This document shows positions 4,320 to 42,582 of a stretch of 45,233 bases of DNA, one piece after another (position 1 is the first letter of the stretch; each line of letters opens with the position of its first letter). This DNA is from a virus. The stretch covers positions 1-45,233 of the IMG/VR virus record IMGVR_UViG_3300029258_002017; one strand, 5' to 3'. Under the pieces are notes generated by a model. It ran no database searches and was not told the origin of the DNA. It saw only the letters and a list, made by a program, of their open reading frames with translations. A program made the translations under genes and the position numbers.

Positions 4320-4371
4320 CCCGACGCGTGAGCGGTGCTGGAGGCATGCGATAAGAAATGACGGCATGTTA

Positions 4372-4390
4372 TCGCGCAGAGGCGCAGAGA
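4372..4390 (+). repeat. Dispersed CGCAGAG repeat, short copy
   Basis: A truncated copy (TCGCGCAGAGGCGCAGAGA) of a motif that recurs at 6729, 9219, 11397, 11465 and 33813. It sits in the spacer before the 4408 gene. Confidence 0.7.
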
Positions 4391-6728: not shown

Positions 6729-6758
6729 TCTCGCGCAGAGACGCAGAGGCGCAGAGAA
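6729..6758 (+). repeat. Dispersed CGCAGAG repeat
   Basis: Full-length copy reading TCTCGCGCAGAGACGCAGAG onward. It begins at the terS stop codon and ends about 30 nt before a strong promoter. Confidence 0.8.
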
Positions 6759-9200: not shown

Positions 9201-9218
9201 TCCACAACCCATAACCCC

Positions 9219-9248
9219 CTCTGCGCCTCTGCGTCTCTGCGCGAGAAA
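9219..9248 (-). repeat. Dispersed CGCAGAG repeat, inverted copy
   Basis: Reads CTCTGCGCCTCTGCGTCTCT onward on + and ends 9 nt before the terminase start, so it forms part of that gene's leader. Confidence 0.8.
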
Positions 9249-11192: not shown

Positions 11193-11435
11193 ATGTCCCG
11201 ACTGGACGGCATGGCCGAAATTGCATCGTATTTTGGGTATAGTCACTCCACCATCCTGGCGCTGATTCGTAATCAGGATTTCCCCGCACGCAAAGTCACC
11301 GGAGGGATCTGGATGTCGGACACCGACCTCATCGACAAATGGCGCAAAAATCAAATCATGGTAGCCCCCCTCGCCCCACCCAAACCCAAAAAACTATCTC
11401 GCGCAAAGACGCAGAGGCGCAGAGGGAGGGCGTGA
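11193..11435 (+). CDS. Small excisionase/Nu1-like HTH protein
   Basis: An 80-residue protein starting MSRLDGMAEIASYFGYSHST after AAAGGAG. The pattern (a helix, Y.HSTIL recognition helix, then a basic wing FPARKVTGGIWMSD) fits the MerR/excisionase-like winged helix also seen in gpNu1 N-termini. The last dozen residues (SRAKTQRRRGR) are encoded by the dispersed repeat, so the original gene probably ended near residue 66 and was extended by repeat insertion. Role unknown; perhaps a second packaging-site-binding or regulatory protein. Confidence 0.65.
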   Translation: MSRLDGMAEIASYFGYSHSTILALIRNQDFPARKVTGGIWMSDTDLIDKWRKNQIMVAPLAPPKPKKLSRAKTQRRRGRA

Positions 11436-11496
11436 TATAGACCAGGGGTTTTTGTTTTAATTGACCTTCTCTGCGCCTCTGCGTCTCTGCGCGAGA
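11397..11496. repeat. Inverted pair of dispersed CGCAGAG repeats
   Basis: A + copy at 11397-11429 and a nearly exact - copy at 11465-11496 are separated by 35 nt. The arms would form a long hairpin. The first arm encodes the C-terminus of the HTH protein. Confidence 0.85.
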
Positions 11497-11550
11497 AATA
11501 TGCTTTTTAATCCCTGTCAAGCACAAAGTCAGTCGGTTTTTCTGCAAAGT

Positions 11551-22693: not shown

Positions 22694-23105
22694 CCGGGAC
22701 GTGATGCAGCGGCTGCGGCCATTCATCGGGATCCCGTTTGTCAACGGCGGGCGCTCTATCGCCAGGGGCGCCGACTGCTGGGGCCTGGCCATGCTGGCCT
22801 ACCGGGGCCTGTGGGGCATCGAGCTGCCGGATTACCGCGTGTCGTGCTTTGCCACCGCAGACATCAACGACACGGTGGATTCCCAGCGGGCGCAGTGGCG
22901 CCGCACGGCCCAGCCAGAGGTCCCCTGCCTGGTGGTCATGCGGATCGATCCCAATATCCCGGAGGCCTGCAACCACCTGGGCGTCTATGTGGGCAACGGA
23001 TTCATGCTCCATACGCTCGCAAAACAGCACAGCGTGCTGGAGCGGATCGCACACCCGTATTTCACGCGCAAAATCGAAGGGTTTTATGCCTATCATCCCG
23101 GATAA
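22686..23105 (+). CDS. NlpC/P60 tail peptidase, gpK-like
   Basis: A 139-residue NlpC/P60-type cysteine peptidase of the tail tip, thought to open peptidoglycan during DNA entry. Candidate catalytic residues are Cys31 (GADCWGLAML) and His97 (CNHLGVYVG), with His109 close behind. It lacks the N-terminal metalloprotease (Mov34-type) domain of lambda gpK, so it is a minimal version. The start at 22686 overlaps the gpL-like gene by 8 nt, and the end overlaps the J-like start. Confidence 0.85.
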   Translation: MRNRDVMQRLRPFIGIPFVNGGRSIARGADCWGLAMLAYRGLWGIELPDYRVSCFATADINDTVDSQRAQWRRTAQPEVPCLVVMRIDPNIPEACNHLGVYVGNGFMLHTLAKQHSVLERIAHPYFTRKIEGFYAYHPG

Positions 23106-26100
23106 CAAGGTCCTGATCACAGCGGTCACAAACCCCTGGCAGCCCACCACCAGCCAGGTCTCGCAATGGGTGGACCACGTGCCCGGACGCGCCATCCCGG
23201 AGTATGCCCGCCAGATATTCCCCCAGGCCCCGGCTGATATGGAGATCGCCGTCAGCCTCAACCGGGTTCCCCTTGTACCCGATCAGATCGCCTCGGTCGC
23301 CATTACGCCGGGCGACAACATCGTCTTTTGCCTGGTCCCCCACGGCGGGGACCAGGGGGGTAAAAACATCCTGGGCATTGTGGCCATGCTCGCCGTCATG
23401 GTGGCCGCGGTCGCAGCCCAGCAGTGGTGGACCGCGCCGCTCATCGCCGGGGGCGTGAGCGGGTCTGCCATGGGCGGGGCCATGCTTGCGGGGGGCATCA
23501 TGATGGCCGGGGGCGTCCTGGTCAATACGCTGCTCAAGCCCCAGCAGGCCGACGTGCCGGATCTGTCAGCCGGCAGCCCAACGTATTCGTGGGACACCCG
23601 CCAGAACCTGGAAAACGAGGGCATCCCCTGGCCCGTGGTGTATGGCCGCTGCCGCGTGCAGCCGCCCCTGATCTGCAAATACACGGAGCTGTGTGAAAAC
23701 AAGCAATATCTCAACATGCTCTATGCCGTGGCCGACCATGCCGTGGACGGCATTACGGACATCATTATCAACGACACGGCCATCGAGGATTTTGATAATG
23801 TTTACCATGAGATCCGGGTTGGCGGATCTGACAACGACGTCCCCTTAGAAAATTTTGGCGACACCATTACGGATCACAACGTAGAATCCGGCCAGTTGGA
23901 CCCCGATTCCGCTGCCCCCTCCGTACCCGTCGAGGTAGACATCGACCCGGACGAAACCCTCATTGTGGGGTCGTGGTCATCTACCATTACCACCGTTAAA
24001 GACGATATTGTCCGCCTCCTGATCGATCTCGAAATTGACGAGGAATTTTTTGAGGAGCTGGGGGATCCTGGCTCGTTTGTGGGCACCATCCCCGGCTCAG
24101 CGGATTTTGTCGTCAAAATGCGCTATCGATCTTCACCGGCTGGGGCCTGGAGCTCGGAGCTCTCATTCCCCGGCACGCGCAAGATATTTTATACCGGCAC
24201 GGCAGGGACCGAATGGCTGGTCAATGAAGACACGCGGTTCATCAACTGCGAGATCGACGGCCTCGCTGCGGATCAGTATGACGTCGAGGTCAAGCTGTAC
24301 TCCAGCACGGCGGAATCCGGCCACGGCATTTTGCTCACGGGATACCGGGCCTTTTCGGACGGGGCCGCCGGTCAAAGCGTCGTTGAAAACGTGCCCGGAT
24401 CGGCCTTTGACGAGATTCGGGTCTTTGCCGTGCTGCCAGGGCTGGGCCGCCATACCGGGTCGGGCATCGAATCGATTACCGTCAAGGTGCTGGCCGGCGT
24501 TAAAATCTCCGGGGGATCCTGGGTCAACCAGGTCCATGAGTTTACCGGGGCCCAGGCCGATCCTATCCGATACCAGTGGACGTTTAAAAACCTGACCCAC
24601 GGGTCCTATCAGGTCAAGCTGGCCTATGCCGAGCAGCCCCCGGGGGTGGGGGACAACCTCTATATGAACGCTGTCACGTTCAGTTACTATCAGACCGTGA
24701 TCTATGACGATTTTACCTATCCGGGCGCATCGCTGCTGGCCGTCAGGGCCCTGTCCACCGACCAGCTCAACGGGATGATCCCCCGCATCTCCTGCCTGGT
24801 CCAGCGCGACAACGTCAGCGTCTACACCGGGGCCGCCTGGGTGGACAAGCCGTCCAATAACCCGGCCTGGGCCGCGTTCGACATGGTCACCAACGACGAC
24901 TACGGCTATGGGGTGGATGGCGACAAGATGCTTTACTCCGAGTTTGACGACTGGGCCGACTGGTGCGACGACGCCTCCGATGAACGCGACAAGGCCCAGG
25001 CCGGGACCGCCACCAGCGTGGGGCTCACCTTTCTGACCGACACGGCCCAGGCCTGGAACATCAACGCCTATGCGGGCTATATCCTGATCGATTCAGCCGA
25101 CGTCTGGTTCGAGATCGCCTCCAACACCGCCACCACCCTGACCGTATCCGGGACCCCGGCAGCGGGGGCGTATGGCATCTATTCCGCGGCGGATTTTGGC
25201 ACGGCCACGGCTGGCAGCGGGTCAGGCGAGATCGAGGATACCTCCAAGGACTGGACGGTAAATCAGTGGAAGGGGTACGTCGCGGTGGACTATGACGCGG
25301 GCGCATCCTATACCATCGAGAGCAACACCGACGACACCCTGACGCTCCAGGGTGGGGCCGGCGGGGTCAACGGCAACCGCTATTACATCCGCAAGCACGA
25401 TTTTAAATGCAATATCTATTTTGATTTGACCCGCCGCTTCGACGTGGCCCTGGGCCTGATCGAGACCCTGGGCTGGGGCCGCGTGGTCCAGAAGGGCACC
25501 AGCTACGGCTGCCTGGTGGACCGGCCCGGGACGCCCGTGCAGCTCTTCGGCATTGGCAACATCGTCAAGGATACCTTCGAAATCGACTATCTTCGCCAGG
25601 AAAACCGCTGCAACCAGATCGAGTGCACCTTCTATGACGAGCAGGACGACTATGTGCGCAAGACCGTCCTGGTCCACCGCCAGGACTACGCCGAATCGGA
25701 CGACACCATCTATGAGACCACCCAGCTCGACCTCATCGGATGCACCCGGCGAGATCTGGCCATCTATCACGCCCAGTATATGCTGGCCTGCAACCAATTG
25801 CTCAAAAAGGTGGTCAGCTTCCAGGTGGAGGTCGACGCCCTCGCCGCCCAGGCCGGGGACCTCATCTATGTGTCGCACGACGTGCCCCAGTGGGGGTATT
25901 CGGGGCGGGTGGTCTCGTCCACCAACAACACCGTCACCATTGACCGCAGCGTCACCATGCAGCCGGGGACCACCTACCAGATCATGATCCGCCACCAGAC
26001 CGACGTGGACGCCGACGGCTACGACGACATGGAAACCGGGACCATCGCCGCGGTCGGGGTCGAGACCACCACGGACGAGGTAACCCTGGCCGCCGGGACC

Positions 26101-27573
26101 TGGACCAACAACCCGGCTGCCGGCGCCGTGTACGCCTTTGGGGCCGTGGGCGCCCTGGCCGGGGATTACCGGATCGTCAACATCACGCGGGCCGGGGACC
26201 TCACCCGCAAGATCACGGCCCTGGAATACGATGTGGATGTCTACACCCCGGATCAGATCATTGCCGAGGACGAGTCCATCTCCGATCTGGTCCTGGTCAG
26301 CGATCTGGCCGCCGCCGAGTATTTCAACTGGGACCGCCCCTATTTCGAGGCATTTGTCCACCTTACCTGGCGGGGCCACGCCTATCTCTGGTATGTGTGG
26401 TATCGCATCTATGACACCGAGGCCGCATGGACCTACTGGGGCGAGACGTCGGACCCCGAGGCCAAGATCGCGGGAGACCTGCTCCACCCCATGACCACCT
26501 ATCAGTTTGCAGTCAGCGCCAATCGAGCGTTGGGGATGGACGCCGAGTTTGTGGATATTGATTTCAAGGGCTATGGCGACACCCTGCCGCCGTATTGGCG
26601 GGCCCATGGGCTCCGGGTCACGGGCGATGATACCGGCGAAAACATTTGGACCGGGCTGGATCTGCACATCGAGTGGTACACCACCGTGTTTTTCGATCTC
26701 GATGCCGGGGACGAACCCGGCGGGGCTGGCATTGCCCCTCCCTCTCAGGAGTTTGACGAGTTTCGCGTCCAGGCCATTGACACCGCCACCGGGACGGTGT
26801 TGCGCGAGGTGATGGGGCCGGGGTCCGAGGCCGTCTATGTTTACGACGCCAACGTGTTGGATACGGGCGGGTATCCCAAGAGCGTGATCACCATCAAGCT
26901 GTGGGGCATTATCCACGGCTGCGAGACCGCCGAGCCCGCTGTCATTATCTGCACCAACGAGGCCCCGGCCGCCCCGGCCAGCGTTACCGCCTACAGCCGC
27001 ATCGGCGGGGTGGAGTTCACCTGGCCCGAAAACACCGAGGCCGACGTTGCCAGCTATTTTGTGCGCACCCGCATTGACAGCGGATCGTGGGGCGAGTGGG
27101 AAAATATCCTGACCAACAGCACCCACCGGGGTCTCACCCTGGCCGAGGCCGCCGCCTATCTGGCCGCCAACGGGCACCTGCGCGTGCCTATCGACATCGA
27201 GGTTTTTGTAGAGGACAAATTCTATCTCTACTCCGGCCTGGACGACAGCGGGACCGCCACCAGCGTGGGGACCAACTCGCTGACCGACACCACCAAATCG
27301 TGGACGCCCGACGAATGGGCCGGATCGGTCCTCCTGGACAGCACGTTCACCCCATTCGATATCGCCAGCAATACGGCCACCGTCCTCACGGTCGTGGGCA
27401 ACCCGGCCGCCGGGGCCTACACCATTCAGACCCCAGCCTCAGGATCGGGCACGGCGAACCAGCCCTACACGGCCTATGTCCAATTAACCATGACCGCGGG
27501 CGCGGGCATTACCGGCGACGTGGACGAACTCTATAACAACGTTTTAGGCAGCGGAGGCGTAACAGTCACCTGA
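23086..27573 (+). CDS. Tail-tip host-specificity protein, gpJ-like
   Basis: A 1495-residue central tail-tip protein. The start at 23086 follows GAAGG and is preferred to the earlier frame, which overlaps the gpK-like gene. The first 80 residues (VLITAVTNPWQPTTS) look like the gpI-type N-terminal part. A glycine/alanine hydrophobic segment follows (about residues 95-150), as in gpI/gpJ proteins. Then come the hub domains and, towards the C-terminus, fibronectin-III-like segments (APAAPASVTAYSRI). Three copies of a 50-residue beta module ((T)DT..SW..(E/Q)WxG...I.SNTATTLTV) lie at about 640-700, 713-755 and 1388-1447. It should contact the host receptor. Confidence 0.9.
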   Translation: MPIIPDNKVLITAVTNPWQPTTSQVSQWVDHVPGRAIPEYARQIFPQAPADMEIAVSLNRVPLVPDQIASVAITPGDNIVFCLVPHGGDQGGKNILGIVAMLAVMVAAVAAQQWWTAPLIAGGVSGSAMGGAMLAGGIMMAGGVLVNTLLKPQQADVPDLSAGSPTYSWDTRQNLENEGIPWPVVYGRCRVQPPLICKYTELCENKQYLNMLYAVADHAVDGITDIIINDTAIEDFDNVYHEIRVGGSDNDVPLENFGDTITDHNVESGQLDPDSAAPSVPVEVDIDPDETLIVGSWSSTITTVKDDIVRLLIDLEIDEEFFEELGDPGSFVGTIPGSADFVVKMRYRSSPAGAWSSELSFPGTRKIFYTGTAGTEWLVNEDTRFINCEIDGLAADQYDVEVKLYSSTAESGHGILLTGYRAFSDGAAGQSVVENVPGSAFDEIRVFAVLPGLGRHTGSGIESITVKVLAGVKISGGSWVNQVHEFTGAQADPIRYQWTFKNLTHGSYQVKLAYAEQPPGVGDNLYMNAVTFSYYQTVIYDDFTYPGASLLAVRALSTDQLNGMIPRISCLVQRDNVSVYTGAAWVDKPSNNPAWAAFDMVTNDDYGYGVDGDKMLYSEFDDWADWCDDASDERDKAQAGTATSVGLTFLTDTAQAWNINAYAGYILIDSADVWFEIASNTATTLTVSGTPAAGAYGIYSAADFGTATAGSGSGEIEDTSKDWTVNQWKGYVAVDYDAGASYTIESNTDDTLTLQGGAGGVNGNRYYIRKHDFKCNIYFDLTRRFDVALGLIETLGWGRVVQKGTSYGCLVDRPGTPVQLFGIGNIVKDTFEIDYLRQENRCNQIECTFYDEQDDYVRKTVLVHRQDYAESDDTIYETTQLDLIGCTRRDLAIYHAQYMLACNQLLKKVVSFQVEVDALAAQAGDLIYVSHDVPQWGYSGRVVSSTNNTVTIDRSVTMQPGTTYQIMIRHQTDVDADGYDDMETGTIAAVGVETTTDEVTLAAGTWTNNPAAGAVYAFGAVGALAGDYRIVNITRAGDLTRKITALEYDVDVYTPDQIIAEDESISDLVLVSDLAAAEYFNWDRPYFEAFVHLTWRGHAYLWYVWYRIYDTEAAWTYWGETSDPEAKIAGDLLHPMTTYQFAVSANRALGMDAEFVDIDFKGYGDTLPPYWRAHGLRVTGDDTGENIWTGLDLHIEWYTTVFFDLDAGDEPGGAGIAPPSQEFDEFRVQAIDTATGTVLREVMGPGSEAVYVYDANVLDTGGYPKSVITIKLWGIIHGCETAEPAVIICTNEAPAAPASVTAYSRIGGVEFTWPENTEADVASYFVRTRIDSGSWGEWENILTNSTHRGLTLAEAAAYLAANGHLRVPIDIEVFVEDKFYLYSGLDDSGTATSVGTNSLTDTTKSWTPDEWAGSVLLDSTFTPFDIASNTATVLTVVGNPAAGAYTIQTPASGSGTANQPYTAYVQLTMTAGAGITGDVDELYNNVLGSGGVTVT

Positions 27574-30500
27574 TGGCCTGGCGCGAGATATCCTACACCT
27601 ATGCGTATACGCACCTGTTCCAAAAGCACCTGCTCTGGCTGGCAGCGAACGCCAACATCTATATTGCCATGCGGGAGAGCGAGGACGATAGCTGGACCTA
27701 TTACGCCGGGACCGCCGCCCACGCCCTGGACACCGGCCTGGTCCTGACTGCATACAGCGCGGAGGCCGACGCCCAGACCAACTACCTGACCACCGACAAG
27801 GACGCCAACGACAAGGTGGTGACCATGCTGCCCGCCATCGTGCAGGCCCGGTTCGTCAAGCTGTTTGTGGAGAGCGGGTCTGGGGTGCAGATTTATGAGT
27901 GGTGGCCCAGCACCTATTTGACCGCCCATGAAATTGTCTCGGGCGAGATCCTGATCACCGACGAGATGAGCACGGCCCCCTGCCTGCGCGTCCTGGTCTC
28001 GGACCAGGAGCGCATCTATCTGGGCGATCTGGGGTCCGACGAATACGGCCTGCGGTGCCGGGACGCCAGCGGGAATATTGTATTTGAGAGCAGCAATGCC
28101 GGCCAGAGCTTCGCCGGGTGGACCTTTACGGACGAATACTTTTACAAACTCACCTCCGGCACGCCCGAAAGCAGCCCCAATGCCGGGATCGTCCTCAGTG
28201 TTGCAGCAGGGCTGGGGGGCGATTTGTCGAGCATTATCGTTTACGACGCGACACCCTTGACCCGTGCCCGCATGGGGTATCTGTACGAGGACGGAGGCAC
28301 GGAGCATTGGGGCATCGGCAGTCAGGACGGATCGGGGAACGTACTGTTCGAGATCAGCGATCAACTGATTCAACTGGCTGGGTGGACGTTTGATCATCGG
28401 TATTTTTACAACCTGGGCAGCGGCACGCCCGGGAGCAGCCCCCAGGAGGGGGTGGTGCTGGATGTGGGCGACGGATCCACGGAATTTCCGTGCGTCACGG
28501 TCTATGACGCGAGCGGCCTTCAGCGGGCCGCCATGGGCTGGCTATACGATGACGGTTCGGACCATTGGGGCATCGGCGGGCTGGACGCCATGGGCAACCT
28601 GCTGTTTGAGATCAGCGACCAGACCACACAGATTTCGGGGTGGACCATCACTACGGCCGCCCTGACCGGCGGCAATGCCACCCTGTCGAGCACCGGCGTA
28701 GTGACCCTGGGCACATCCAACGACGTGGTGATCGTCTCCGCCGCCGACGCCACGTACCGGCTGTGGGCCGGGCATGCCACCGCCGGGTCCGCCCCCTTCC
28801 GGGTCACCAAGGCCGGGGCCCTGACTGCCACCAGCGCCACCATTACCGGCGTCATCACGGCCACCACCGGCTACATCGGCGGGGCTTCGGGCTGGGTAAT
28901 CGCCGCGGGCAAGATGACCTCCACCGGCATTGGTCTGGCTACCAGCGCAGGGGACGCCACCTACGCCTTTTGGGCGGGCGATAACACCCCTGGCAGCGCC
29001 GAGTTTCGGGTCACCCACGCCGGGGCACTGACCGCGACATCGGCTACCATCACAGGCTCTGTTACCGCAACGACCGGGACGATCGGCGGGTGGACGATTA
29101 TCTCGGGATACATTTATTCGCTGGTGTCCGGCACGCCTACCAGTTCTCCCAACTCCGGCATTGTCTTGGAATCCGGGTCGCAGGCCAAGCTGGTAGTCTG
29201 GGACGCCACTCCCTTACGGCGCGCCCAGGTGGGCTATCTGTATGAGGACGGGGGCACGGATCACTGGGGTATGGGTGGGTATGATGGATCCGGCAACATC
29301 CTTTTTGAGATATCCGACCAGCTCACCCAGATCTCCGGCTGGACCATCACTACGGCCACCCTGACCGGCGGCAATGCCACCCTGTCGAGCACCGGCGTAG
29401 TGACCCTGGGCACATCCAACGACGTGGTGATCGTCTCCGCCGCCGACGCCACGTATCGGCTGTGGGCCGGGCATGCCACCGCCGGGTCCGCCCCCTTCCG
29501 GGTCACCAAAACCGGGGCCCTGATCGCCACGAACGCCACCATCTCCGGCACTATCAGCGCCACGGCCATCGATATTGGCGGGGCCGACAACACGTCATTC
29601 CATGTCGATACAGACGGCAACATGTGGCTGGGGGCCGCCACTTACGATATTGGGACCAACCCGTTCGCGGTCAGCAAGGCAGGGCTGATGCGCGCCGTAT
29701 CGGGCACTATTGGTGGGTGGACCCTCTCCGGCAATGCAATGAGCTCAGGCGCATGGGCGTCTAATATTATTCACCTCGTTGCTAACGGCGTGTGGTCGTA
29801 TATTAGCATCAACGATCCCACATACGGCGCAAAAGGCATTCAACTATTATACAGCGGCGGAACTCCAAAAGCCTATATCGGCGACGGCGCCAATCAATAT
29901 TTTCAGTTCGATGGCAGCAATATATCCTGGAAGGGCACCAACACTCAACTGACCGCAGCGGGCGCTTTCACTGCCACCTCTGCCACGATCACCGGGGCCA
30001 TTACGGCCACGTCCGGGACCATCGGGTCGTTTACCATCGGCACCTATCTGTACTCTGGGTCTAAAATCGCCTACAACGACGCCAACGCCGGGGTCCATCT
30101 GGGGTCAGACGGGATCGGGATCGGGAACAATGTGTTTACGGTGTCAAGCGCCGGCGCTCTCACCGCCACCAGCGGCACCATCGGCGGGGCCACCATCACG
30201 TCGACCTACCTGTTGATCACCGCCGCCGCAGGCCTGGTGGTCGCCGCCGACGGGGGCATCAAGCTCACCGGGCACGCGACCACCCCCGCATTCATCCACA
30301 TGTACGGCACGTCCTACACCTCCAAGCTGGGCTGCAACGCCACCGGCGAGGTCCAGGGATGGCGGCCCGAATCAGACAACACGGCCAGCCTCCACATCGG
30401 GGTGGGGCCTACTGCGTTTACTGGCTTTTCGTGGATGGACCAGCACCGGTGGTCCTATATCTACCTGGATGGCTACAACCTGTTCCAGGCCCGCGCCTAT

Positions 30501-31106
30501 ATGGGCGAATACACCCAGACCTTTCTAATGCTGGACCAGGGCAACGACAAGATCGAACTCAAAAGCCACAGCGAGCAGTACGTGTTTTCCGAGGTCACCC
30601 TCGAAGCGGGCCAAAAATGGTCCAACGATCATTACGCGTTGATGAAGGCCAGCCCCTATCACGCGTCAGATACCGGCACCCCGGAGACCACCGGCAGCGG
30701 CTATCTGACCGATACCGACAAGGGCTGGAGCAACGACGAATGGATTGGCTATTACCTCCAGGACAGCGCAGGGACCACCCATGCCATCACAGACAACACC
30801 GATACGCGGCTGGACTGGGACAGCGCCGCCACCCCCGCCTCCGGCGTCTACTGGATTCGCAACCCCGCCTTCGTCCAGGTCACGGTCGACGGAGACGCCA
30901 ACAAGATAATTTTGTCCACCAAATCCTTGGGAGACCCCGGCGTGATCGACATCGAGTATGCCGACCGCATCCGGCTGCAGACCAGCAAGACGCCTGCCAG
31001 CAGCACCGACACAGGCGTCGTGGGCGATATTTGCTGGGATGCTGACTATATCTATGTGTGCACGGCCACTAATTATTGGGAGCGGGCCGCTATCGCGCAC
31101 TGGTAA
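27573..31106 (+). CDS. Large repetitive tail fibre
   Basis: A 1177-residue fibre protein starting within the previous stop (TGATG). It contains three copies of a module with GYLYEDGGTEHWGIG and FEISDQ, and many GALTATSATITG-type strand repeats typical of beta-helical or triple-stranded fibre shafts. Two 169-bp stretches (28642-28810 and 29341-29509) are almost identical at the DNA level. Near the C-terminus (about residues 1035-1095) is another copy of the SW..EW.G / I.DNT beta module found in the gpJ-like protein. It is likely attached to the tail tip and involved in adsorption. Confidence 0.85.
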   Translation: MAWREISYTYAYTHLFQKHLLWLAANANIYIAMRESEDDSWTYYAGTAAHALDTGLVLTAYSAEADAQTNYLTTDKDANDKVVTMLPAIVQARFVKLFVESGSGVQIYEWWPSTYLTAHEIVSGEILITDEMSTAPCLRVLVSDQERIYLGDLGSDEYGLRCRDASGNIVFESSNAGQSFAGWTFTDEYFYKLTSGTPESSPNAGIVLSVAAGLGGDLSSIIVYDATPLTRARMGYLYEDGGTEHWGIGSQDGSGNVLFEISDQLIQLAGWTFDHRYFYNLGSGTPGSSPQEGVVLDVGDGSTEFPCVTVYDASGLQRAAMGWLYDDGSDHWGIGGLDAMGNLLFEISDQTTQISGWTITTAALTGGNATLSSTGVVTLGTSNDVVIVSAADATYRLWAGHATAGSAPFRVTKAGALTATSATITGVITATTGYIGGASGWVIAAGKMTSTGIGLATSAGDATYAFWAGDNTPGSAEFRVTHAGALTATSATITGSVTATTGTIGGWTIISGYIYSLVSGTPTSSPNSGIVLESGSQAKLVVWDATPLRRAQVGYLYEDGGTDHWGMGGYDGSGNILFEISDQLTQISGWTITTATLTGGNATLSSTGVVTLGTSNDVVIVSAADATYRLWAGHATAGSAPFRVTKTGALIATNATISGTISATAIDIGGADNTSFHVDTDGNMWLGAATYDIGTNPFAVSKAGLMRAVSGTIGGWTLSGNAMSSGAWASNIIHLVANGVWSYISINDPTYGAKGIQLLYSGGTPKAYIGDGANQYFQFDGSNISWKGTNTQLTAAGAFTATSATITGAITATSGTIGSFTIGTYLYSGSKIAYNDANAGVHLGSDGIGIGNNVFTVSSAGALTATSGTIGGATITSTYLLITAAAGLVVAADGGIKLTGHATTPAFIHMYGTSYTSKLGCNATGEVQGWRPESDNTASLHIGVGPTAFTGFSWMDQHRWSYIYLDGYNLFQARAYMGEYTQTFLMLDQGNDKIELKSHSEQYVFSEVTLEAGQKWSNDHYALMKASPYHASDTGTPETTGSGYLTDTDKGWSNDEWIGYYLQDSAGTTHAITDNTDTRLDWDSAATPASGVYWIRNPAFVQVTVDGDANKIILSTKSLGDPGVIDIEYADRIRLQTSKTPASSTDTGVVGDICWDADYIYVCTATNYWERAAIAHW
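28642..28810 (+). repeat. 169-bp direct repeat, copy 1
   Basis: Nearly identical to 29341-29509 within the same fibre gene; only a few bases differ (for example GCCGCC against GCCACC near the start). Confidence 0.85.
29341..29509 (+). repeat. 169-bp direct repeat, copy 2
   Basis: Second copy, 699 bp downstream of the first and in the same reading frame, so exchange between copies would keep the gene open. Confidence 0.85.
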
Positions 31107-32827: not shown

Positions 32828-33730
32828 ATGACTGAAAAATGGGAAATCGGCAACATTGACAACAGCCCGATCGGGCAGGCGACGCCGGCAGCCGGGGCAT
32901 TCACAACCCTTGCCGCCTCTGGAAACGTCACCCCCGATACGTTAACCGCAAGCAAACCGGTCTTTACGGATGCGAGCAAACACCTCGTATCTACCGGCAC
33001 CCTGGGGGTCGATCAGGGAGGCACTGGCATCACTACATTGACGGATCACGGCGTGCTGGTGGGATCTGGAGTAGGCGCAGTGACGCCGCTCGCTGTGGGC
33101 ACCAACGGCCAGGTCCTGGTGGGATCTACCGGGGCCGATCCGGTGTTTGCCACCATTACCGACGGCGAGGGGATCACCACCACCCTGGGCGCCGGGACGT
33201 TGCAGATCGATTGCGAGGACGCCAGTGATACCAACAAAGGGGTTGTCGAGCTGGCCACGGACGCGGAGGCGGTGACCGGGTCAGATACCGACCGCGCCTG
33301 CACCCCCGCCAACCTCACCGCCCGCCTGGCTGCCCCTGGGGCGATTGGTGGGACCACCCCGGCAGCGGGGGCGTTTACTACCCTGGGCGCAGCCGGGTTG
33401 AGTACCTTGTCCAGCATGACGGCAAAAAAGACCAATGTGGACGACGACAATTATAACCCGAGCGCCTTAACCACCGATCACATTATCGCCTTTATTGCCC
33501 TTACTGCGGCCAAAAACTGCATCATCAGCACCGAGGACGAGGACAGCGGCACAGCTACCCAGCCCAGGGTGATGATTATCAAAGACGAGAGCGGCGATGC
33601 AGGCACGTACAACATCACCATCAGCCTGGAGTCCGGCGGGACCATCGACGGAGCCGCCACCTACACGCTCAACCAGGCGTACGAATCCGTCAGGCTCTAT
33701 ATCAACGGGACCAACGCATTTACCATGTAA
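32828..33730 (+). CDS. Phage fibre-like protein
   Basis: A 300-residue protein with two copies of TPAAGAFTTLxA (near residues 20 and 183) and a VDQGGTGITTL segment, both common in phage tail-fibre shafts and collars. The C-terminal part is beta-rich (YNITISLESGGTIDGAATY). It lies immediately upstream of the DGR target gene. Its DNA has a strong AGGAGG before the start. Confidence 0.8.
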   Translation: MTEKWEIGNIDNSPIGQATPAAGAFTTLAASGNVTPDTLTASKPVFTDASKHLVSTGTLGVDQGGTGITTLTDHGVLVGSGVGAVTPLAVGTNGQVLVGSTGADPVFATITDGEGITTTLGAGTLQIDCEDASDTNKGVVELATDAEAVTGSDTDRACTPANLTARLAAPGAIGGTTPAAGAFTTLGAAGLSTLSSMTAKKTNVDDDNYNPSALTTDHIIAFIALTAAKNCIISTEDEDSGTATQPRVMIIKDESGDAGTYNITISLESGGTIDGAATYTLNQAYESVRLYINGTNAFTM

Positions 33731-33790: not shown

Positions 33791-35389
33791 ATGAACAAAA
33801 AACAATTATCCACCCTCTGTTCCTCTGCGCCTCTGCGCCTCTGCGCGATCATCTGCGCTGTACTCGTTGCCGCCCTGCTGATCGCCGCCCCGCCTGCCCT
33901 GGCCAAATACGACGGAAGCCTCGGCTGGTATGGGGTATCCTGGAACCAATCCACTGACAGCTATTCCCGCCGCGGCGATCTGGTGGATTTTGCCGCCGCT
34001 GCCAGCCCGGGCGACGACTACCTGCCCGTGCAACGCCTCATGCGCCGCTGCGTGATGAACGACTCTGGCGTGGTGGTTTATTACCTGGACCCAACAGACT
34101 CGACTAAGAAGTACAATGGGGCCAGCGCCAGCCTCGACGGGACCGACGGTCAGGTGATGGTCGAGATCCCCAAATTTTATATCCGCACCAGCTACAGTTC
34201 CAACGTCCACTCGTGGGACATCTCCCTGACCCCCCGCGACGGGTTTTTCCCACACCCCGCATTTTACAAAGACGGGGCCTGGGTGGACTACCGCTACATG
34301 GGGGCCTACGAGGGGAGCTTGTGGGACGACGACACCACCGCTATGTACTCTGATGCGGACGCCGTGACAGCCGACACCTACGACGATGGAGATAAGTTGT
34401 GCAGCATTACCGCCCAGTGTCCCAAAACAAATGAGACCCGCGCTGAGTTCCGGGAGGCCGCCAGCGACAGAGGCGCAGGCTGGCGCAATCAGGAGTATGA
34501 CATTACAACCGCTGTGCAACTGCTCTACCTGGTCGAGTACGCGGATTTTGATTCGCAGTCCATGATCGGCAAGGGGCGCACCATGTTTTCCTCCGGCGCG
34601 TGGACAGTAGCCGGGACCGGAGTCGGCGACTACATCGGCCGCACCGGGTACAGCAACAGTTATGGCAATGCAACAGCCACCTACCCAGCGATGGGCAGTC
34701 AACGGTCATCTGCTCTGGACATATCTGCCATAGATACATCACAGGCGGCCTATTGTGATTTTGTGTCGTATCGAGGCATTGAAAATTTCTACGGGAACGT
34801 GTGGCAATGGGTGGACGGCATCAATGTGGGCCTGGCTGGCACGCACGACGGCGGGGATAACGAGGCCACCGTTATGACCGACAGCGGCGAGTCCTGGCCG
34901 ACGAACAGCCTAATCGGCGCCACCATCACAAATACGACCGACAGCAGCTCGGGCACGATCACCGCCAACACCGGCACGACCATCACCGTCGCGTCGCTGA
35001 GCGGCGGAACGGACAACGACTGGGATACCGGCGATGCGTTCGTGGTCAGCAACATTGTCTGGCTGTGCAGCAATGAGGCCAATTTTGCCGACGATGCCTA
35101 CACTAACTATGATGCCCTGTACGATACCAGCGGAGACCGGGCCGTACTGCACAATGCCGACGGATATGCCGGAGCGCTGGAGCAGATTTACACCGGCTTT
35201 TTGGCGACGGATGTGACCGGGTCGAGCACAACCAAGGTTTGCGATTACTATTACCAAGATACTGGGTGGCGTGTGGTCGGCTTCGGCGGGGCTGCGGGTA
35301 GCGCGTCGGCTGCGGGTGCGTTCTGCGTCTCTGCGGGTAGCACGTCATCGTATGTCCATGCGGCTATCGGCGGGCGGCTCTGCTATTAA
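33791..35389 (+). CDS. DGR target protein, C-type-lectin/FGE-like, exported
   Basis: A 532-residue protein. Residues 1-38 look like a Sec signal peptide: basic MNKK, a long hydrophobic core, and ALA before K39; a strong AAGGAGG precedes the start. The mature part has tail-protein features (RRCVMNDSGVVVYYLDPTD; MVEIPKFYIRT). The C-terminal domain has GNVWQWVDG and ends TGWRVVGFGG...IGGRLCY, the hallmark of the formylglycine-generating-enzyme-type C-lectin fold used by DGRs. A copy of the SW....G / TIT.NTGTTITV beta module interrupts this domain (about residues 352-420). The last 40 residues are the variable repeat. Only the signal peptide is atypical for a phage tail receptor-binding protein. 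Confidence 0.93.
   Translation: MNKKQLSTLCSSAPLRLCAIICAVLVAALLIAAPPALAKYDGSLGWYGVSWNQSTDSYSRRGDLVDFAAAASPGDDYLPVQRLMRRCVMNDSGVVVYYLDPTDSTKKYNGASASLDGTDGQVMVEIPKFYIRTSYSSNVHSWDISLTPRDGFFPHPAFYKDGAWVDYRYMGAYEGSLWDDDTTAMYSDADAVTADTYDDGDKLCSITAQCPKTNETRAEFREAASDRGAGWRNQEYDITTAVQLLYLVEYADFDSQSMIGKGRTMFSSGAWTVAGTGVGDYIGRTGYSNSYGNATATYPAMGSQRSSALDISAIDTSQAAYCDFVSYRGIENFYGNVWQWVDGINVGLAGTHDGGDNEATVMTDSGESWPTNSLIGATITNTTDSSSGTITANTGTTITVASLSGGTDNDWDTGDAFVVSNIVWLCSNEANFADDAYTNYDALYDTSGDRAVLHNADGYAGALEQIYTGFLATDVTGSSTTKVCDYYYQDTGWRVVGFGGAAGSASAAGAFCVSAGSTSSYVHAAIGGRLCY
33813..33849 (-). repeat. Dispersed CGCAGAG repeat inside signal peptide
   Basis: CCTCTGTTCCTCTGCGCCTC onward: an inverted copy with an extra CCTCTGCG unit. 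It is read in frame as TLCSSAPLRLCAI, the front of the signal peptide's hydrophobic core. Confidence 0.8.
35266..35378 (+). other. DGR variable repeat (VR)
   Basis: Matches the template at 35459-35571 without gaps. It encodes the last residues of the target (WRVVGFGG to IGGRL). Over 112 nt it differs from the template at 17 sites. At 16 of these the template base is A (9 A to G, 4 A to C, 3 A to T); the exception is C35472 to G. The altered codons change 14 residues. Confidence 0.95.
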
Positions 35390-35458: not shown

Positions 35459-35571
35459 GTGGCGTGTGGTCCGCTTCGGCGGGGATGCGGATAGCACGAC
35501 GACTGCGGGTGCGTTCTACGTCAATGCGAATAACACGTCATCGAATGTCAATGCGAATATCGGCAGGCGGC
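35459..35571 (+). other. DGR template repeat (TR)
   Basis: The invariant template copied into the VR. It is 193 bp downstream of the VR in the same orientation and 140 bp upstream of the RT start. It is rich in AAT, GAT, ACG and AAC codons in the VR frame. Of 23 adenines in 35459-35570, 16 differ in the VR and 7 are unchanged. The non-coding stretch on to the RT (35572-35710) holds a perfect 14-bp palindrome at 35661-35674 (CCTGCCATGGCAGG) and would be part of the template RNA. Confidence 0.95.
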
Positions 35572-35710
35572 AAGGCTTATTTCAAACAGTTCAGGTTTTT
35601 GGGAGGCCGGGACCCTGCCCCTTGGCAAAACACAAAGCAAAGCCCCATCGGTGCTGGTAGCCTGCCATGGCAGGTCGAACGTTCCGGGGCGAAATAAGCA
35701 GAGGGCAACA

Positions 35711-36775
35711 ATGAAACGATACGGAAACCTGTATCCCAACATGTGCGATCCGCAAAACATCCTGGCCGCCCACCTGGCTGCCCGCCGGGGCAAGGGCCAT
35801 TACCGCGAGGTCAAGATGGTGGATGCCGATCCGGAGCGCTATCTGGATAAAATCAGGGATATGTTGGTCAACAAGATATTTGTGAATGCTCCCTACAAGG
35901 TGTTTACCAAAACGGATCAGCGCAAAAACCGGGTGATCCACAAGCTGCCCTACTATCCGGACCGGATCGTTCACCATGCGGTTGTGCAGGTGCTGGAGCC
36001 GATCTGGATGGCCGGGTTTATCCCCACCACCCTGGCATGCATCAAGGGCCGCGGCATTCACACAGGGGCGCGCCAGATTAAGCATGCTATCCATGCTGAT
36101 CCGGACGGAACCCGGTATTGTCTCAAAATGGACGTCAAACAATTCTACCCCAGCATGGACCACAAGGCGCTGCTGGGCATGCTGGCGAGAAAGATCAAGG
36201 ACCCGGACGTGATGTGGCTGTTGAGCGAGATCATCGATTCCACACCGTCTCCGGGTCTGCCCATCGGCAACTACCTGAGCCAGTATTTTGGCAATGTGTA
36301 TTTGTCTGGGATCGACCATTATGTCAAGGAGTCGCTGGGGTGCAAGCACTACTGGCGCTATTGCGACGACATGGTGATCCTGGATGGCGACAAGGCCCGG
36401 CTGCATGGGTTGCGCCGGGATATCGACGAGGCCCTGGGAGAGATCCGCCTGACCATGAAGGCCAACTGGCAGGTGTTTCCGGTATCTGTGCGCGGACTGG
36501 ATTTTATGGGGTACCGGTTTTTTGGCGGATACACCCTGCTGCGCAAAACAACGGCAACCCAGTTTAAACGGGCCATGGCCAGGATCAAGCGATGCTGGCG
36601 CCGTATGCGGCCCATCAGTGTAGTGAGCACGGTCATGAGTTATTATGGCTGGATGACACACGCTAACTGTTTGCATTTGTGGCATGCCTATGTTGACGAT
36701 CAGATCCGGGACATCCTGGCGACAGTGTGTCGAACGGCCGGGATACGCAACCCCATGAAAAGGAGGTTTGCGTAA
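35711..36775 (+). CDS. DGR reverse transcriptase
   Basis: A 354-residue RT of the diversity-generating retroelement group, which copies the TR RNA into cDNA with errors at adenines. Motifs: catalytic Asp141 in KMDVKQFYPSMD; IGNYLSQ at 185-191, the DGR form of motif 4 that replaces the QG of other RTs; YCDDMV with Asp219 and Asp220; and the later FMGYRFFGG and WMTHANCLHLW thumb region. The N-terminus (NLYPNMCDPQNILAAHLAARRGKGH) is also typical. The start at 35711 follows AGAGGG; an earlier in-frame ATG at 35651 lies in the template RNA region. Its stop touches the start of the next gene. Confidence 0.97.
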   Translation: MKRYGNLYPNMCDPQNILAAHLAARRGKGHYREVKMVDADPERYLDKIRDMLVNKIFVNAPYKVFTKTDQRKNRVIHKLPYYPDRIVHHAVVQVLEPIWMAGFIPTTLACIKGRGIHTGARQIKHAIHADPDGTRYCLKMDVKQFYPSMDHKALLGMLARKIKDPDVMWLLSEIIDSTPSPGLPIGNYLSQYFGNVYLSGIDHYVKESLGCKHYWRYCDDMVILDGDKARLHGLRRDIDEALGEIRLTMKANWQVFPVSVRGLDFMGYRFFGGYTLLRKTTATQFKRAMARIKRCWRRMRPISVVSTVMSYYGWMTHANCLHLWHAYVDDQIRDILATVCRTAGIRNPMKRRFA

Positions 36776-37105
36776 ATGGGAGATGGCATCACGGTGCTGG
36801 CAGACAAGCGCAAACCGCGGTTTTCGGAGTTCGCCGACGAAAAGCCCCCGCTGGAGGGCGATAAGCTCAAGATAGACGACATTTTAAATCAGGAGGTGGA
36901 GCTGATCGATTTCAGAATTGGCCGTACCAAGTACAGCAAGAACCAGTCGGGCAAATATATCACGCTCCAGATCCGAAAAGACGGGATGTTGCATGTGGTA
37001 TTTACGGGGAGCGACGTACTAATCAGTCAGGCAATGAAATACGCGGAACATGTCCCGTTCTTGGTCACCATTAAGAAAATCAACCGTTATTACACCATGA
37101 CATAA
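36776..37105 (+). CDS. Small beta-rich protein coupled to DGR RT
   Basis: A 109-residue protein starting MGDGITVLAD at the base after the RT stop, with AAGGAGG inside the RT 3' end. The core has alternating strands (EVELIDFRIGRTKY, KYITLQIRKDGMLHVVFTGS, VPFLVTIKKINRYYTM) and looks like an OB-type fold with basic and aromatic residues, suggesting nucleic-acid binding. It is not like Avd, the helical bundle that usually partners DGR RTs. Direct coupling suggests a role in retrohoming; this is inference. Confidence 0.7.
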   Translation: MGDGITVLADKRKPRFSEFADEKPPLEGDKLKIDDILNQEVELIDFRIGRTKYSKNQSGKYITLQIRKDGMLHVVFTGSDVLISQAMKYAEHVPFLVTIKKINRYYTMT

Positions 37106-37120
37106 CGAAAGGAGATCATT

Positions 37121-37441
37121 ATGAAAAACGCATTGATCATCATCGTAACCGTTGCATGCGCCGCACTGTTTGTCTCGCCGTCCATGGCCGCTGACCATCC
37201 GGGGGCCGACTACGCCTGGGAATACAGCTCGTATGCCATGCCTGAAACCGGCGTCACCCGGGGCCAGAAAATATTCCGGTGGGCCAGCGAATCATTTGTC
37301 AATGACGATGGCGACACCATCTATCGGTGCAAATACGTGTGGACAGGCACCGGCAAACAGGACCCAGTCAAAACTATGATCCAGACGAAATATCCGTCGG
37401 AAAAAAGCGTTGATGATTTGGTTAAAGATGTTGAAAAATAA
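37121..37441 (+). CDS. Small exported protein
   Basis: A 106-residue protein with a clear Sec signal peptide (MKNALIIIVTVACAAL, cleavage likely after SMA at residue 23). The mature part is about 83 residues, aromatic-rich (DYAWEYSSYAMPETG, KYVWTGTG) with no known motif. Good GAAAGGAG before the start. Like the DGR target it would go to the periplasm or surface, so it may be a lysogen-expressed accessory (moron) or partner of the target. Confidence 0.75.
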   Translation: MKNALIIIVTVACAALFVSPSMAADHPGADYAWEYSSYAMPETGVTRGQKIFRWASESFVNDDGDTIYRCKYVWTGTGKQDPVKTMIQTKYPSEKSVDDLVKDVEK

Positions 37442-38735: not shown

Positions 38736-39145
38736 CTATCAGAACGGGGGTTAAGGCGAAACGAACTATCCTGGCAGTAGATGATGAAACACCCTGGCTC
38801 GATGTGTTATGCCGGACATTGAACAAATGGAATTACACTGCCGTCTGTTTTCCGACAGCACGAGAGGCGCTGGATGTGTTCCCGTCCATCCGGCCATTCC
38901 TTGTGCTTACCGACTTGAGACTGACGAACCACATCGACGGCGCAACGATGGCAGCTAAGATGCACATGCAGGACCCGATGTGTATTTTCATTGCAATCAG
39001 CGGCTTAGTCTCAACGTGGGATCTGGGCTTTCTGCTCGGGAGCGTATTCACGGACGTGCTGAACAAGCCAATAGATTTTAATGTACTCAAACAGGTGACA
39101 AATTACGCCTGGGAGAAGAGGCAGCGGTGGGAGCAGTTGATTTAG
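38732..39145 (+). CDS. CheY-like receiver-domain protein
   Basis: A 137-residue single receiver domain. All key residues are visible: acidic pocket D17/D18 (ILAVDDE), phosphorylation site D61 (VLTDLRL), S90 in the switch position (IAISG), and K112 in NKPI. No output domain follows; the tail is a short charged helix. It is unusual inside a phage lysis block, coupled at both ends to lysis-type genes (4-nt overlap upstream, 19-nt overlap downstream). It may read or interfere with a host histidine kinase, or be a captured host gene. Confidence 0.88.
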   Translation: MTIRTGVKAKRTILAVDDETPWLDVLCRTLNKWNYTAVCFPTAREALDVFPSIRPFLVLTDLRLTNHIDGATMAAKMHMQDPMCIFIAISGLVSTWDLGFLLGSVFTDVLNKPIDFNVLKQVTNYAWEKRQRWEQLI

Positions 39146-39546
39146 ACCTTCAATCAGTTGATGAATTCGATCTGCTTGTGGCCTGCCTACGCGGTGAGGC
39201 TGAGGGTGAGCCGTTCATGGGCAAACTCGCCATTGCCTGCGTTATCCGCAACCGGGTTAAGGACAAGCGCTGGCCGGACACCTACCGGGGCGTCATGTTG
39301 CAGCCATATCAGTTCTCTTGTTTTTTGCCCCAGTATTTTAGGCCGCAAACACTGAAGCACGACTGGGATAAAAGCTATTGGAAAGAGTGCAACTTCGCAG
39401 CCTTTGGGGTTTATCACGATTGGGTTCGGGACATCACTGGCGGAGCGAATCACTATCACGCCTTCGGGGTGCATCCGAAATGGGCTGATGACATGGAGCG
39501 GGCAGACATCAACATTGCAGGGCATCATATATTTTATAAGGGATGA
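39127..39546 (+). CDS. SleB/CwlJ-type cell-wall hydrolase (endolysin)
   Basis: A 139-residue hydrolase of the SleB family. Motifs: LVACLRGEAEGEPFMGKLAI with the conserved glutamate, AIACVIRNRV, and GVMLQPYQFSCF, all standard for the family. There is no signal peptide, so release depends on the holin. The start is GTG at 39127 inside the receiver gene, with AGAGGC upstream; no in-frame ATG precedes the domain. It degrades peptidoglycan at lysis. Confidence 0.9.
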   Translation: MGAVDLDLQSVDEFDLLVACLRGEAEGEPFMGKLAIACVIRNRVKDKRWPDTYRGVMLQPYQFSCFLPQYFRPQTLKHDWDKSYWKECNFAAFGVYHDWVRDITGGANHYHAFGVHPKWADDMERADINIAGHHIFYKG

Positions 39547-40908: not shown

Positions 40909-41358
40909 ATGGACCTGACAGGCATTGGCAGCGTGTTTGATTTTGCCAAAGGGATCGTGGACCGGATCTGGCCCCCCGACGCCGACCCAACAGAGAAGGC
41001 CAAGGCGCAACTGGCACTGCAACAAATGATCGAGCAGCGCGAAACCCAGATTATAGAGGCCCAGAAATCGATCATTGTCAGCGAGATGAACCAAGGCGAC
41101 GCCTACACAAAACGCGCCCGACCCACCATCGTATACGCCGGCCTGGCATTCATTTTCCTGGTCAACGTGGTTTTCCCTCTCCTGGCCTGGGCCACCGCGC
41201 TGAGCACAGGCAAACCCCTCGCCGACATCCCCCACATCACCCTCCCCGGCGAGTTCTGGGCCGCCTGGGGAGGGGTCTGCAGCATCTGGGTCATCGGCCG
41301 CAGCGCCGAAAAACGCGGCGCCGCCAACAAGGTCACCAACCTAATTACCGGAACATAA
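40909..41358 (+). CDS. Holin, 3-TM type
   Basis: A 149-residue protein. The N-terminal FDFAKGIVDRIWPPDADPTEKAKAQL is the hallmark of the 3-TM holin family shared with gene transfer agents. Then come a helix with E/Q, ARPTIVYAGLAFIFLVNVVF as a membrane segment, a second hydrophobic stretch, and GRSAEKRGAANK at the C-terminus. It forms inner-membrane lesions that release the endolysin. AGGAGG lies upstream. It is the last gene before attP. Confidence 0.88.
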   Translation: MDLTGIGSVFDFAKGIVDRIWPPDADPTEKAKAQLALQQMIEQRETQIIEAQKSIIVSEMNQGDAYTKRARPTIVYAGLAFIFLVNVVFPLLAWATALSTGKPLADIPHITLPGEFWAAWGGVCSIWVIGRSAEKRGAANKVTNLITGT

Positions 41359-41496: not shown

Positions 41497-42582
41497 TCAA
41501 TAAGTTAAGCCGCTTTTCGGAGCGGCTTTTTTTTGGGGGTTTTGGTCGCAAATTGTAAGACCAGGGATTTTGGCCACGGTGTCGATGCGGAGGCGGTGGG
41601 AAACGTGCTGGTAGGTGCGCATGAGGGTTTCCGGGCGGGAGCCCATGATCTCAGAAAGGGCTTTGATGTCTGCGTCTCGCTCCAGGGCTGCGGTGGCAAA
41701 GGCGTGGCGCAAATCGTAGGGGCGGAGGCGGCGGGTGATTTTAGCGTGCTTCAGGGCATGGCGCCAGGCGGTTTTGATCGATTGGATGGGTTTGCCGCGA
41801 TAGTGGATGATGGGGCCATGGCCGTCGTCAGTTGCAAACCAACCGGTGAGGGTGGGCAACAGTTGGGGGTGGATGGGGACCGCTCGCTTGGTGGGGCCGC
41901 CTTTGTGCGCCGATGTGACCAGGATGGCCTCGCTTTCCCACGATACGGCTGGCCAGGTCAGCGACAGCAGCTCCACGGCCCCAGGCCGCAGGCCCAGGTA
42001 ATACGACAAGACAATAGCGCGCCGCAGGTGATCCGCACTGTGAACCAGGATACGCTCGACCTCATCCACGGAGGGGGGCGGGATAATGGCGTCATAGGCT
42101 TTCGGTTTTTTGTAGTCTCGGACCGGATTGGCCGGAATGAGCGGCGGGTTTCGAGAGACTGCGGCGTTGAGGATGGCCTGGATCGCGGTCAGCTCGCGCC
42201 GAATCGTGCTGTCCTGCACCTGTGCTCGCCGGCTGTGGACATACTGGTCCAAATCATGAAACCGCAGCCCGATAGCGTCTCGGTGCCCAAAATAGGGGAT
42301 GATATGGGCCTCCAGTTGGTAGCGCAGCACATCCCTGGTGCTCATAGCCAGGTGCTGGGTCTGCACGTATGACCTCGCCAGGTCCGCAAAGACCGGCCCC
42401 ACATGCCGCCGGGCTGGCCGCCGTTTGGCCAAATGCAGCGCATCATGCCGAGCCTGTGCCCGTTTTTGTCCCTCGACCCCTCTGCCGAAATATTCCCGCC
42501 GCTCGGTCGCTTTCCCGGTATCTGTATCCCGCTCACGATAGTAACAGATCCATCGCCCGTCTTTGAGCATTCGAATGGCCAC
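41497..42582 (-). CDS. int: Tyrosine integrase
   Basis: A 361-residue tyrosine recombinase with an N-terminal Arm/SAM-like part and a C-terminal catalytic domain. Candidate catalytic residues: Arg199 (LGLRPG), Lys227 (AHKGG), Arg292 and His293 in PYDLRHAFAT, and Tyr324 in MRTYQHV. The histidine usual before DLRH is Tyr289, and the second usual H is Ser315, both known variations. The start is GTG at 42582 (or ATG at 42570); AGGTGA overlaps the end of the upstream gene. The final residues (KKAAPKSGLTY) are encoded by the tRNA-associated terminator next to attP. Confidence 0.94.
   Translation of the reverse strand: MAIRMLKDGRWICYYRERDTDTGKATERREYFGRGVEGQKRAQARHDALHLAKRRPARRHVGPVFADLARSYVQTQHLAMSTRDVLRYQLEAHIIPYFGHRDAIGLRFHDLDQYVHSRRAQVQDSTIRRELTAIQAILNAAVSRNPPLIPANPVRDYKKPKAYDAIIPPPSVDEVERILVHSADHLRRAIVLSYYLGLRPGAVELLSLTWPAVSWESEAILVTSAHKGGPTKRAVPIHPQLLPTLTGWFATDDGHGPIIHYRGKPIQSIKTAWRHALKHAKITRRLRPYDLRHAFATAALERDADIKALSEIMGSRPETLMRTYQHVSHRLRIDTVAKIPGLTICDQNPQKKAAPKSGLTY
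41507..41534 (+). terminator. Intrinsic terminator beside attP
   Basis: AAGCCGC (41507-41513) with GCGGCTT (41522-41528) and a run of eight T on the + strand. It would end late transcription after the holin and, in the lysogen, end the restored tRNA transcript. It overlaps the last codons of int. Confidence 0.85.

Follow-up and report, generated by a model that had tools for sequence, protein, structure and literature searches.

A predicted Sec signal peptide on the DGR target of a temperate siphophage and its recurrence among related phage adhesins

The window analyzed in this study (IMG/VR virus record IMGVR_UViG_3300029258_002017, positions 1 to 45,233; 45,233 nucleotides) holds most of a siphophage genome. 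Its genes follow the order primase, terminase, portal, protease-capsid protein, tail tube, tape measure, tail L, J, and fibre genes, with a DGR 3′ of the fibre genes and then endolysin, holin, and integrase. Upstream of the DGR lie the central tail fibre J (22738 to 27573, + strand), a tail fibre protein without a signal (27573 to 31106, +), and the fibre-like P0003, also without a signal (32828 to 33730, +), whose gene is directly 5′ of the DGR target, here called T. Long internal repeats were observed within the second of these fibre genes (window positions 28137 to 29584, 84% over 355 bp). The downstream lysis module starts with the endolysin (39127 to 39546, +) and includes the holin (40909 to 41358). 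The presence of a tyrosine integrase (41497 to 42582, − strand) indicates that the phage is temperate, in agreement with an earlier sequence-only reading that had suggested a prophage-borne system. T is positioned between the tail and lysis genes, in the late region.

T is not regarded as a host gene swept into the contig: its surroundings are head, tail, and lysis genes, and several of its signal-bearing relatives have head or tail genes beside them. A scan of bacterial genomes gave few close matches, the best being a contig (L031) inside a Deltaproteobacteria MAG, which shares with the window its primase (64%), terminase (57%), reverse transcriptase (RT; 64%), and accessory protein A (61%). 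This kinship and placement hint that the host of the window phage is possibly a deltaproteobacterium.

The target gene T encodes a variable adhesin of 532 aa (33791 to 35389, +) matching the tail protein family phrog_5302 (E 3.8e-90). Its variable region (VR; 35266 to 35378, +) and the template region (TR; 35459 to 35571, +) differ over 113 nt by 16 A-mismatches and one other, so the pair differs mainly at TR adenines. Between TR and RT lies an RT-17 RNA (Rfam RF03020, 54.5 bits; 35611 to 35702, +), and the DGR-type RT adjoining TR (35711 to 36775, +; PF00078, E 8.8e-12; phrog_1423, E 4e-121) was taken to start at the conserved MKRYGN rather than at the GTG at 35651. Judged by these features, namely, the A-specific VR/TR pair, the RT, and the RT-17 RNA, the DGR is real and complete. 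No second VR-bearing gene was found in the window, leaving T as the only one. Two small genes follow the RT. The first, A (109 aa; 36776 to 37105, +), has 61 homologues in related loci and no good Pfam or PHROGs name, and is perhaps a DGR cofactor. The second, D (106 aa; 37121 to 37441, +), carries an SPI-type signal of its own.

The mature part of T (33905 to 35386, +) was modeled with AF2 (pLDDT 82.6, pTM 0.84), giving a predicted C-type-lectin fold with the VR at its C terminus. With Foldseek and VIA-align, the closest structure to the model was TaqVP (5vf4), the C-type-lectin target of a Thermus aquaticus prophage DGR (Z 27.1, rmsd 3.4 over 276 residues, with 22% identity over these residues), followed by formylglycine-generating enzymes and Mtd. 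The model therefore identifies T as a predicted C-type-lectin DGR adhesin of the TaqVP type, and its homology to tail proteins marks it as a putative phage tail receptor-binding protein. Mtd of Bordetella phage BPP-1 is comparable in being a DGR target encoded in a phage tail region and in having a related lectin fold (Z 11.7), but it is a virion tail protein, whereas T differs in its N-terminal part and in having a signal peptide. For TaqVP, the passages found in PMC6328139 mention no signal peptide. The nearest homologue of T, in locus L003, carries this core as a C-terminal fusion to a fibre N terminus to which P0003 is homologous. Among named phages, the T core without a signal was found in MetMV, Porphyromonas phage005, and Bacteroides phage Versailles. 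The latter two also carry D downstream (after the RT in Versailles), and, unlike in the window, both T and D lack a signal there.

The N terminus of T reads MNKKQLSTLCSSAPLRLCAIICAVLVAALLIAAPPALA-KYDGSLGWYGVSWN, with K as the residue after MNKKQLSTLCSSAPLRLCAIICAVLVAALLIAAPPALA, and has the features of a Sec/SPI-type signal peptide (residues 1 to 38; 33791 to 33904, +). The ribosome site AAGGAGG stands directly 5′ of the ATG, and no alternative ATG, GTG, or TTG with a ribosome site was found in the window between the signal and the conserved core, which bears out the earlier claim of a strong ribosome site and a sole usable start and rules out a cytoplasmic T made from an internal start. Signals were called with our own rule-based Sec/SPI test, which requires n-, h-, and c-regions with a small-residue cleavage motif; it accepted MalE, OmpA, and Lpp and rejected LacZ and P0003. 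T has all of these elements. Of 67 window ORFs with a ribosome site, three passed, namely, T, D, and one antisense ORF that is taken as chance. Shuffled versions of T residues 2 to 38 still passed in 2,800 of 5,000 trials; since the composition of this segment is itself signal-like, such shuffles are useless as a null. Cleavage had been proposed near residue 38, where ALA/K is indeed a canonical site, but the scorer preferred residue 28, so the position is uncertain. Neither T nor the signal-bearing kin listed showed a lipobox, membrane anchor, or sorting domain, and cysteines were not enriched (P = 0.27), which removes disulphide bonding as the cause of export. In a separate observation, a dispersed repeat of about 30 bp, CCTCTGCGCCTCTGCGTCTCTGCGCGAGA, gave 13 pattern matches against 0.05 expected; one copy (33815 to 33850) encodes the n-region of the T signal, and the other five copies in the window are at 4371 to 4389, 6729 to 6758, 9217 to 9246, 11397 to 11426, and 11469 to 11498.

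Better evidence for the signal is comparative, as the same core appears with differing signals in many other phages. Viral contigs were scanned with both RT and T to collect homologues, many relatives being fragments, and a de novo search located VR/TR pairs at 126 of the 141 related RT loci. A signal behind a ribosome site, in every case of SPI type, was present in 21 of 149 distinct T homologues. On the family tree of T, signal state changed 14 times, with at least 10 of these changes forced by well supported branches; the signal is thus not confined to the window contig. A full DGR accompanies, among others, the signal-bearing targets of the window, L007, L011/L012, L031, L047, L050, L108, L149, and L005. 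The signals differ in sequence, and several have Q directly after the site (ANA/Q, VEA/Q, and VIA/Q), as in the Q rule of Bacteroidetes (PMC10367356). Two further targets were recorded in these scans. That of L015 (5995 to 7311) bears a signal and a VR/TR pair with the RT undetected in the contig, and this DGR may have lost its RT. The L005 target (862 to 2964), possibly archaeal, begins with a segment of membrane or signal type and contains many N-x-S/T sites.

Phage DGR proteins have been described as having no detectable transmembrane regions or signal peptides, a rule cited as support for phage over bacterial origin (PMC6199706), and signals or membrane segments have been described for the targets of cells, with roles in the tail for those of viruses (PMC8144416). 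The sequence-only reading had noted that phage targets such as Mtd, as tail proteins assembled in the cytoplasm, need no export, and the open-licence literature yielded no description of a phage DGR target with a signal. T and 20 further distinct targets depart from this pattern. That reading had also named signal-less homologues as a finding that would count against it. Such homologues do form the majority (128 of 149), but the claim survives them, because signals recur and because D varies with T.

The D family, of about 100 aa, comprised 137 ORFs across loci, including that of the window, located downstream of T or of the RT. It received no name from Pfam or PHROGs, and its model was modest (pLDDT 75.5), with no significant fold match. 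Among T/D pairs, both members carried a signal in 9 cases, T only in 3 (L050, L108, and L297), D only in none, and neither in 93. This association was strong when kinship was ignored (Fisher P = 7e-11). Corrected for kinship, D changed the same way as T in about 4.6 of 7 independent pairs and never the opposite way (P ∼0.06); an earlier test on the RT tree, with one independent pair on supported branches, had too little power. Upstream proteins were also affected in places. Protein U of L031 carries a signal, and its homologue in L003 does not; the product of L081 5127 to 5666 carries one, and its homologue P0003 does not. Overall, neighbours with signals numbered 16 of 61 around signal-bearing T and 30 of 433 otherwise.

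A hydrophobic N terminus need not act in export. T might instead stay in the cytoplasm and be built into the tail tip, with this segment serving virion or membrane contact, as could be expected from its tail-fibre position, from a nearest homologue that is a fibre fusion, and from the fact that most T homologues are tail proteins without signals. Such a role would not account for many differing textbook signals with positive n-regions and small residues at −3 and −1, for the recurrent Q after the site, or for the covariation of D with T while A had no signal among the members listed, and it is considered quite unlikely. At a probability of roughly 60%, the data favor genuine Sec/SPI export of T, the adhesin module having been moved to an export route in about one-seventh of the sampled kin. 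This rests on signal-like N termini, repeated changes of state, the T-D correlation, the DGR anatomy, the predicted fold, and the phage context. T would then be cleaved, and the lack of a lipobox or anchor suggests that it would be soluble in the periplasm.

Several sites of action may be considered for an exported T. According to the sequence-only reading, it would be displayed by the lysogen or infected cell. On the host surface, a prophage-expressed T would be a diversified lectin comparable to Treponema TvpA and to the Legionella lipoprotein target, both of them exported DGR targets with a lectin fold. Those proteins are cellular and have lipoprotein signals (PMC4891356), whereas T belongs to a phage and its signal is of the SPI type, and the lipobox cysteine of a surface lipoprotein target was found neither in T nor in the signal-bearing phage homologues listed. 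Because the window phage is temperate, display by lysogens is possible, and relatives G005, G015, and G026 also have integrases; in addition, an N-terminal signal or membrane segment is common in cellular DGR targets (PMC8144416). However, no anchoring element was seen, the closest kin are tail-fibre tips, T lies in the tail-lysis region, and the sequence upstream of and around T gave no more promoter or terminator signal than expected by chance. We therefore consider display unlikely; of the earlier interpretation, the signal and the temperate phage were supported, and surface display by the lysogen was not.

The late position and the lack of a promoter above chance suggest instead that T is expressed with the tail genes. 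One use of a late, exported adhesin would be to bind the envelope receptor used by the phage itself, sparing progeny from debris and second infection in the manner of T5 Llp. The probable periplasmic location, the predicted adhesin fold, and the late position would suit such a cover. As T is the sole VR gene and has no start for a cytoplasmic copy, however, the adhesin on the virion would not share the variation of exported T, and this use appears doubtful, the least probable of those considered.

Under the preferred reading of genuine export, the DGR adhesin, often with D and upstream fibre-like proteins, would leave the cytoplasmic route of virion assembly for the export route. T would be made late, with the tail genes, and would gather with D in the periplasm until endolysin and holin opened the cell and freed it. 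Once released, the protein could serve the progeny as an adhesin, whether it becomes part of the virions during lysis or works as a free lectin. If the DGR serves tropism, T, as the only VR-bearing gene, must reach the virion, and lysis would be the obvious time. Late synthesis, periplasmic build-up, and release at lysis may accordingly be suggested, tentatively, as the likeliest use of T. The signal-less P0003 in the window counts against this explanation, and no case is known to us in which an adhesin of the virion arrives at the particle from beyond the cytoplasm. That phages repeatedly re-route the DGR adhesin module via Sec, with the adhesin joining the virion at lysis or being a secreted lectin, is held at somewhat less than even odds.

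T and its kin contradict the stated rule that phage DGR proteins have no signals (PMC6199706). The widespread, unannotated D family may be needed for DGR adhesins. An adhesin that repeatedly changes cell compartment together with a partner would imply either that virion assembly includes a novel step or that a phage carries a secreted, self-diversifying lectin. Re-routing of the module through Sec, if true, would be a way of producing or employing a phage adhesin that has not been described before.
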